From Marinobacter maroccanus (GTDB taxonomy: Bacteria; Pseudomonadota; Gammaproteobacteria; Pseudomonadales; Oleiphilaceae): DNA of 64,000 bases. This document shows, piece by piece, positions 5,627 to 63,751 of the stretch. The position numbers and the translations under genes are program-made. A model generated the notes under the pieces. The model made no database searches. It had not been told where the DNA came from and saw nothing but the letters and a program-made list of their open reading frames with translations. The stretch is from NCBI RefSeq assembly GCF_002933275.1, contig NZ_PSSX01000004.1:186001-250000 (forward strand), written 5' to 3'. Every line of letters starts with the position of its first letter. The stretch's first letter is position 1.

Positions 5627-5740
5627 GGCGTGGTTGGGTGGCGCCTCCCAAAACTGTGCGGAGCCAGGGATGGCGGAGCCCAAGCGCCACATGGATGTGC
5701 CGCAAGGAGCGTGTTTTGGGAGGCGCCACCCAAGCACGTC
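5627..5740. repeat. Dispersed structured repeat, copy 1
   Basis: A 114-bp element with 28-bp inverted arms (5627-5654 and 5713-5740, 26 of 28 complementary; the inner 21 bp are perfect). Between them are smaller hairpins. Read on the minus strand, the interior contains ACGCT, CACATCCATGTG, GCGCTTG and a GCCATCCCTGGC motif. The same motifs occur in the same order in the element at 63631-63740, whose arms have a different sequence. It lies between glxR and the rpoH terminator and contains no gene. Confidence 0.9.
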
Positions 5741-63607: not shown

Positions 63608-63630
63608 TTCTTTGAGCTTTGAGATTGCCG

Positions 63631-63740
63631 GCAGGTGTTGGGCTAGGCTTTCCAAAACACGCTACGAGCACATCCATGTGCGCTTGTTTCGGGCCATCCT
63701 TGGCCCTCTACAGTTTTGGAAAGCCTACCCCAACACCTGC
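63631..63740. repeat. Dispersed structured repeat, copy 2
   Basis: A 110-bp element with 28-bp inverted arms (63631-63658 and 63713-63740), complementary at 27 of 28 positions. The interior holds ACGCT, the CACATCCATGTG hairpin, GCGCTTG and GGGCCATCCTTGGCCC. These are shared with the element at 5627-5740, in the same order and spacing. It fills the gap between two convergent genes. Confidence 0.9.
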
Positions 63741-63751
63741 CTCCGCTGGCT

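Follow-up and report, generated by a model that had tools for sequence, protein, structure and literature searches.

The 64,000-nucleotide stretch of the Marinobacter maroccanus genome analysed here (the window) carries two copies of an intergenic element that belongs with the known RNA family TwoAYGGAY (Rfam RF01731), in a form with copy-specific stems. We consider it somewhat better than an even chance (a probability of about 0.55) that the element is an intergenic structured RNA of this family, predicted to bind the regulator CsrA/RsmA. In the proposed mechanism, the AYGGAY strand (plus in copy 1, minus in copy 2) would be transcribed and would adopt a stem of ~26-29 bp that ends in two small hairpins, with a CANGGANG loop on each. 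A CsrA/RsmA dimer would probably grip both loops, and the copies would serve as chromosome-wide CsrA sites, with an effect on the RNA of which they are part, or would together titrate CsrA. In this genome the copies turn over as arms change in pairs, cores are exchanged or inverted, and deletions occur; in other bacteria the family is mobile. The two copies and their parts are located as follows, where R1 denotes our own covariance model of the element.

5629..5738, AYGGAY (probable RNA) strand plus: copy 1 of the element (inverted repeat; RF01731 31.1 bits; R1 94.6 bits at 5631-5736)
5629..5654, plus: 5' stem arm of copy 1 (inverted-repeat search)
5665..5672, plus: first CANGGANG of copy 1, CAGGGATG, hairpin 1 loop (sequence reading; motif count)
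5690..5697, plus: second CANGGANG of copy 1, CATGGATG, hairpin 2 loop (sequence reading; motif count)
5713..5738, plus: 3' stem arm of copy 1 (inverted-repeat search)
63630..63741, AYGGAY strand minus: copy 2 of the element (inverted repeat; RF01731 29.9 bits; R1 105 bits at 63635-63736)
63713..63741, minus: 5' stem arm of copy 2 in the minus-strand reading (inverted-repeat search)
63695..63702, minus: first CANGGANG of copy 2, CAAGGATG (sequence reading; motif count)
63671..63678, minus: second CANGGANG of copy 2, CATGGATG (sequence reading; motif count)
63630..63658, minus: 3' stem arm of copy 2 in the minus-strand reading (inverted-repeat search)

The two copies are the first two of 16 inverted repeats listed for the window, with arms of 26 nt (96% complementary) around a core of 58 nt in copy 1, and arms of 29 nt (97% complementary) around a core of 54 nt in copy 2. 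The first-pass annotation, which gave copy 1 arms of 28 bp and an extent of 5627-5740, was correct within a few bases. It had also described a second copy with the same motifs in the same order; both elements are indeed real and share this order, the second palindrome reading GCCATCCCTGGC in copy 1 and GGCCATCCTTGGCC in copy 2. Both fold far better than shuffled sequence: the z-scores against dinucleotide shuffles, computed for both copies on the strand opposite to AYGGAY, are -7.1 (copy 1) and -10.5 (copy 2), and none of 200 shuffles equalled either. The claim that both copies lie between gene ends is true of copy 2, which is flanked by converging genes, but not of copy 1, which separates the end of one minus-strand gene from the start of the next; glxR and rpoH are the names given to this pair by the first-pass annotation. 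No gene called by a simple codon-usage script overlaps copy 1 or 2, in line with the statement that neither contains a gene, but some mechanical open reading frames, up to 142 aa and 81 aa in length, run across the copies.

The element is dispersed well beyond the window. The 4.34-Mb genome contains 28 occurrences of the core pattern ACATCCATGTNNGCT, whereas the same pattern read backwards, used as a control, does not occur at all. The covariance model R1 was built on the AYGGAY strand from 44 aligned copies; as these came from two core-based searches, the model favours the motif. It returned 112 rows in the genome, of which the 96 with a score of at least 55 bits (49 on the minus and 47 on the plus strand) are regarded here as copies; the remaining 16 rows are weaker, and some of them represent the reverse strand of a copy. 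The pattern counts and the 96 copies together show that the element is not due to chance, and bear out the first-pass description of a dispersed structured repeat. In 21 of the 96 cases the copies lie within ~130 kb of one contig outside the window (G000 C1:142081-272478), that is, within ~3% of the genome. Among the arm cells, 98.8% are paired, and two-sided changes are observed at 23 of the 24 arm pairs, though the arms vary between copies. Sequence conservation is found in the core and not in the arms. Where copies have identical cores, no more than 1 to 8 of their 12 outer arm positions match, which indicates that cores are more widely common than arms.

At gathering thresholds, Rfam has no match anywhere in the window. 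At relaxed thresholds, RF01731 aligns with both copies, at scores (31.1 and 29.9 bits) below its cut-off of 43; in the whole genome it yields 34 matches at E 1, the best at 42.4 bits and none over the cut-off, and no match was found in 14 control genomes. The alignments extend over the full length of the model (positions 1-168) and place two AYGGAY-type hairpin loops within one outer stem, on the AYGGAY strand. The portion of PMC2864571 available lists Gammaproteobacteria among the taxa with TwoAYGGAY. A scan of 274 genomes sampled from the class gave RF01731 matches in 23, over the cut-off in 13 of them, and R1 matches in 49, which represent 44 of 222 genera; within the taxonomic family, R1 matches 97/121 genomes and 9/16 genera. 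Only 14 and 33 candidates per genome were scored in the class and family scans, respectively, and these counts are lower bounds. Three of 12 RF01731 loci over the cut-off (L214, L217, and L218) match R1 at E 5e-13 or better, and at the other nine R1 fails E 0.01 at that place. Conversely, one of 11 R1 loci from other genera (L228) is over the RF01731 cut-off, and ten have no RF01731 match at E 1. The bridge between the two models is therefore real but partial, and the family is broader than either of them.

The second Rfam family related to the element, RF02770 (the Yersinia sRNA Ysr224), aligns to its opposite strand. It matches 26 of the 274 class genomes, with a best score of 51.3 bits and none over the cut-off of 70 bits, and R1 matches the opposite strand at 24 of 25 sub-threshold class loci. 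The same is true of all nine RF02770 matches over the cut-off (8 loci) in Yersinia similis and Y. pekkanenii. Hence RF01731 and RF02770 appear to be descriptions of a single element from its two strands. The first-pass annotation knew of no named family with this design, and held that an existing database family would speak against its proposal. Such families largely cover the element, RF01731 and RF02770 doing so from opposite strands, with the window copies below the RF01731 cut-off and no RF02770 match in this genome at E 0.001. The copies of Y. similis and Y. pekkanenii also fit YPAL, with which they were compared by published description; the portion of PMC2229807 available gives YPAL as a repeat of ~168 bp with internal inverted repeats and target duplications of 3-26 bp at sites of dyad symmetry. 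In the extracts found by literature searches for TwoAYGGAY, Ysr224, and AYGGAY, RF01731 and RF02770 are nowhere joined, which is no proof of absence, and a search combining Marinobacter, intergenic repeats, and CsrA returned no paper. Rfam microRNA matches are far below their cut-offs and were taken as an effect of the long stem, and nothing in the available text of the respective papers ties the element to triplex repeats (PMC4666352) or to the CsrA sRNAs of Alcanivorax (PMC9788540).

The two strands of the element differ both in motif content and in the mispairs found in their arms. In 95 of the 96 copies, CANGGANG occurs exactly twice on the AYGGAY strand and is absent from its complement, with both N positions variable. 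The same arrangement is present in 19/19, 15/16, and 13/17 copies in genomic slices of the relatives G098, G103, and G084, respectively, and in 36/51 copies from other genera. As judged from the R1 alignment and the motif count, the motifs are presented in hairpin loops, as in CsrA-binding RNAs. Read on the AYGGAY strand, the arm cells of 93 copies comprise 2159 Watson-Crick, 39 G-U, 3 A-C, and 31 other combinations, whereas a strand-symmetric DNA site is expected to have G-U and A-C in equal numbers (p 5.6e-9); the arm counts exclude 3/96 copies from this genome and 15/51 from other genera, in which less than 18 of the 24 positions pair in the register of the model. G-U also exceeds A-C in the copies outside the R1 training set (23 vs 3), in the slices of relatives (12 to 1, 6 to 0, and 14 to 1), and in 36 copies from other genera (45 to 8), of which several from Yersinia are near-identical and thus not independent. 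This excess suggests that selection acts on a single-stranded form of the AYGGAY strand. RNA is a simpler reading of this form than single-stranded DNA; G-T is better tolerated than A-C in single-stranded DNA too, so that the excess leaves RNA unproven.

The reading of the element as a structured RNA draws on this G-U excess, on the paired arms with two-sided changes, and on the bridges to RF01731 and RF02770. Its predicted binding of CsrA/RsmA is suggested by the two CANGGANG motifs in 95/96 copies, by the Rsm consensus A/UCANGGANGU/A (given in the available text of PMC6849547), by the presence of one csrA gene in this genome, and by an earlier proposal, based on motif matches, that TwoAYGGAY binds CsrA (PMC4333381, as excerpted). 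Several observations argue against this explanation as a whole. Ysr224 is annotated on the opposite strand, and its copies are reported as expressed in Yersinia, strand aside, in the portions of PMC9029176 and PMC12112432 available. The orientation to genes is neutral (24 to 27), unlike that of a sense UTR element; only 36/51 copies in other genera have exactly two CANGGANG and none opposite; and R1, built from core-selected copies, is biased toward the motif. Among the three options left by the first-pass annotation, a structured RNA fits best, given the strand-specific G-U tolerance and the motif conservation, a nucleoid-protein site leaves the strand asymmetry unexplained, and a MITE-like element accords with mobility seen in relatives (G409 and Yersinia) but not with the lack of any trace of it in this genome.

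The last option corresponds to the foremost alternative, which we regard as distinctly less probable: a selfish miniature mobile element, the hairpin of which (as RNA or single-stranded DNA) would be recognized by the transposition machinery, CANGGANG being the motif of that machinery and not of CsrA. The same hairpin is found in mobile units in Methylotuvimicrobium and Yersinia. In Methylotuvimicrobium (G409), the copies are situated inside an enclosing unit, the ends of which resemble CAGCAATTCCCAATTTG and, in 11/11 fetched copies, carry direct repeats of 8-11 bp. The longest flank repeats of eight complete Yersinia copies, 5, 5, 8, 10, 19, 21, 22, and 25 bp in length, resemble target duplications, and the four longest are palindromic. 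The patchy spread of the element (49/274 class genomes) and its neutral orientation to genes also favour a selfish origin. In contrast, the 96 copies of this genome have no target-duplication signal, their longest flank repeats being like those of mispaired controls, and their sites are common with relatives (15/17 and 10/17, see below). Furthermore, no match to Y1_Tnp (PF01797) was detected in this genome, although 5 of 14 control genomes have one, which rules out a REP/RAYT system, and neither a plasmid match for copy 1 nor a phage match for copy 2 was found.

The history of the copies was examined on contig C33 (311 kb), where 16 of the 96 copies lie and R1 also matches a long variant at 91091 (40.3 bits), giving 17 matches in all, by comparison with syntenic slices of G098 (93.1% identity), G103 (87.9%), and G084. 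An element is present at the orthologous place for 15 of the 17 sites in G098 and for 10 in G103. In 14 pairs of copies from this genome and G098, 259 arm positions are the same and 48 have changed on both sides and are paired; changes on one side are still pairing in 13 cases and broken in 14, and two positions changed on both sides are unpaired in one genome. Both-sides change accounts for 48/77 changed orthologous arm positions, including some that reflect whole-allele exchange, and the long variant at site 91091 does not align in register. At three sites in these pairs the core is inverted between the arms. Alleles also cross species out of order; at C33:11193, the allele of this genome resembles that of G103, and the allele of G098 resembles that of G084.

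The site of copy 2 is filled in this genome, G098, and G103, whereas G084, 95.2% identical to G103, keeps only the right arm, with AAG common at the join. Since close relatives are filled at this place, the lone arm in G084 is a deletion scar, showing that one-arm sites can arise by loss, and insertion by inverted target duplication, considered for the one-arm sites in G103 and G084, was ruled out. The site of copy 1 is filled in 9 of 20 relatives (one lacking hairpin 1 and one with an insertion), unfilled in 10, and unplaceable in one. With sites common with relatives, one-arm losses, and no target duplications, the copies of this genome look like old residents.

Three further kinds of sites were encountered in these comparisons. 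In the long variants, hairpin 2 is split by ~80 nt with further hairpins and a common stretch around GCTTATGAAGC, perhaps a nested element; they were seen at L143 11091-11188 (C33:91091 of this genome), at 103767 of the G103 slice, at L129, and in G084 opposite G103 32200. At C33:8840-8976, a different palindromic repeat (GTCGGATTACGCC..GGCGAAGCCGTAATCCGAC) occupies the place where G098 and G103 carry a TwoAYGGAY-type element. Finally, at L124 (G065) an insertion of ~1.9 kb, by eye maybe a group II intron with a reverse-transcriptase gene, separates the element from the adjoining terminator.

According to gene calls by the in-house codon-usage script, 94 of the 96 copies are outside genes and the other two share more than 20 bp with a predicted gene. 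The copies are located between same-direction (51), converging (25), and diverging (20) genes, and the gaps of at least 100 bp on contig C33, a background that includes the gaps holding elements, are of the same three types in 65, 7, and 38 cases (n=110). A second alternative, which we consider unlikely, explains the element by its long stem, which, in a transcript-end or mRNA-stability hairpin, would block exonucleases or be cut by RNase III, the core mattering little. It is consistent with the location of 25/96 copies in converging pairs against 7/110 of the C33 gaps (element-holding gaps included), with the long, stable stems, and with the description of ERIC, a similar kind of repeat, as affecting transcript stability (PMC2229807, in the portion available). 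However, sequence is conserved in the core and not in the arms, and the mispair asymmetry singles out one strand, yet either strand would form the stem.

The orientation of copies relative to same-direction neighbour genes has no bias (24 to 27), and a 3'-UTR element by orientation was ruled out. Pairs of copies less than 250 bp apart are in minus-plus order in 10/10 cases, and one pair 595 bp apart is in plus-minus order. The ten close, divergent doublets include G000 C33:288692-288975, C11:10919-11217, C6:51323-51715, and seven more, and have the same order in G098 and G084. On the AYGGAY strand, the 3' flank is A-rich and T-poor from ~20 to 80 nt past the model end (A 34 and 38%, T 13 and 15%), whichever gene end faces it; an effect of ribosome sites was ruled out, as this composition is present facing gene starts and gene ends alike.

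Less probable still, and in our view very unlikely, is a DNA-level site (a cruciform or a nucleoid-protein site), the arms of which would be held symmetrical through copy correction of one against the other as the DNA is replicated. The almost perfectly Watson-Crick arms (2159/2232 cells), the both-sides change at 48/77 changed orthologous positions, and the correction of imperfect palindromes by template switching agree with it, but G-U and A-C should then be equal (observed 39 to 3 and 45 to 8) and the motif is conserved on one strand. Copy correction may nevertheless help to keep the arms paired.

For the reading as a TwoAYGGAY-type RNA predicted to bind CsrA/RsmA, a wider proposal, which we offer tentatively and think rather doubtful, is that TwoAYGGAY, Ysr224, and YPAL (the latter by description) form one class-wide mobile hairpin family with a two-site CsrA dock, the ~96 residents of this genome constituting a ~190-site CsrA reservoir and the mobile repeat being now part of the Csr network. 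The element may move via an RNA or single-stranded DNA form, like a bacterial SINE, as suggested by the selected single-stranded form, the variable lengths of target duplications in Yersinia, and the A-rich 3' tail observed here.

The unification of RF01731 with RF02770 and the evidence for the working strand seem to be new, and the most useful results are this strand evidence and the finding that Ysr224 represents the reverse strand of a TwoAYGGAY-type element. Curation of the two families on opposite strands may mislabel the strand in genome annotation; Ysr224 is among the 20 most prevalent bacterial sRNAs (PMC9029176, in the portion available), and the strand question thus touches the annotation of many genomes. 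If the binding of CsrA is confirmed, repeats between genes would make up a large share of the Csr/Rsm network that has gone uncounted until now, and one that existing CLIP-seq methods could address. In addition, a genome with ~96 copies is a natural system for following fast sequence change in stems with pairing kept.

Among known systems, TwoAYGGAY (RF01731) has the same two (A)YGGAY-loop hairpins on an outer stem, in the same order and on the same strand; the element described here differs by its copy-specific outer stem, its many copies in one genome, and window scores below the cut-off. Ysr224 (RF02770) is the reverse complement of the same core, but is annotated on the opposite strand and has no match in this genome at E 0.001. 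YPAL, also known as the RU-2 repeat, resembles the element, by the portion of its description available, in its internal inverted repeats and in the target duplications seen at Yersinia copies, whereas the copies of this genome are without target duplications. The CsrA-sequestering sRNAs of the CsrB/RsmY type show several CANGGANG-like sites on hairpin loops; there, one RNA has many sites, whereas the element has two candidate sites per unit in ~96 dispersed units. Finally, REP/BIME repeats are likewise numerous intergenic palindromes that also form inverted pairs, but the element is larger and branched, has a conserved core inside variable arms, and is accompanied by no Y1_Tnp gene found in this genome.
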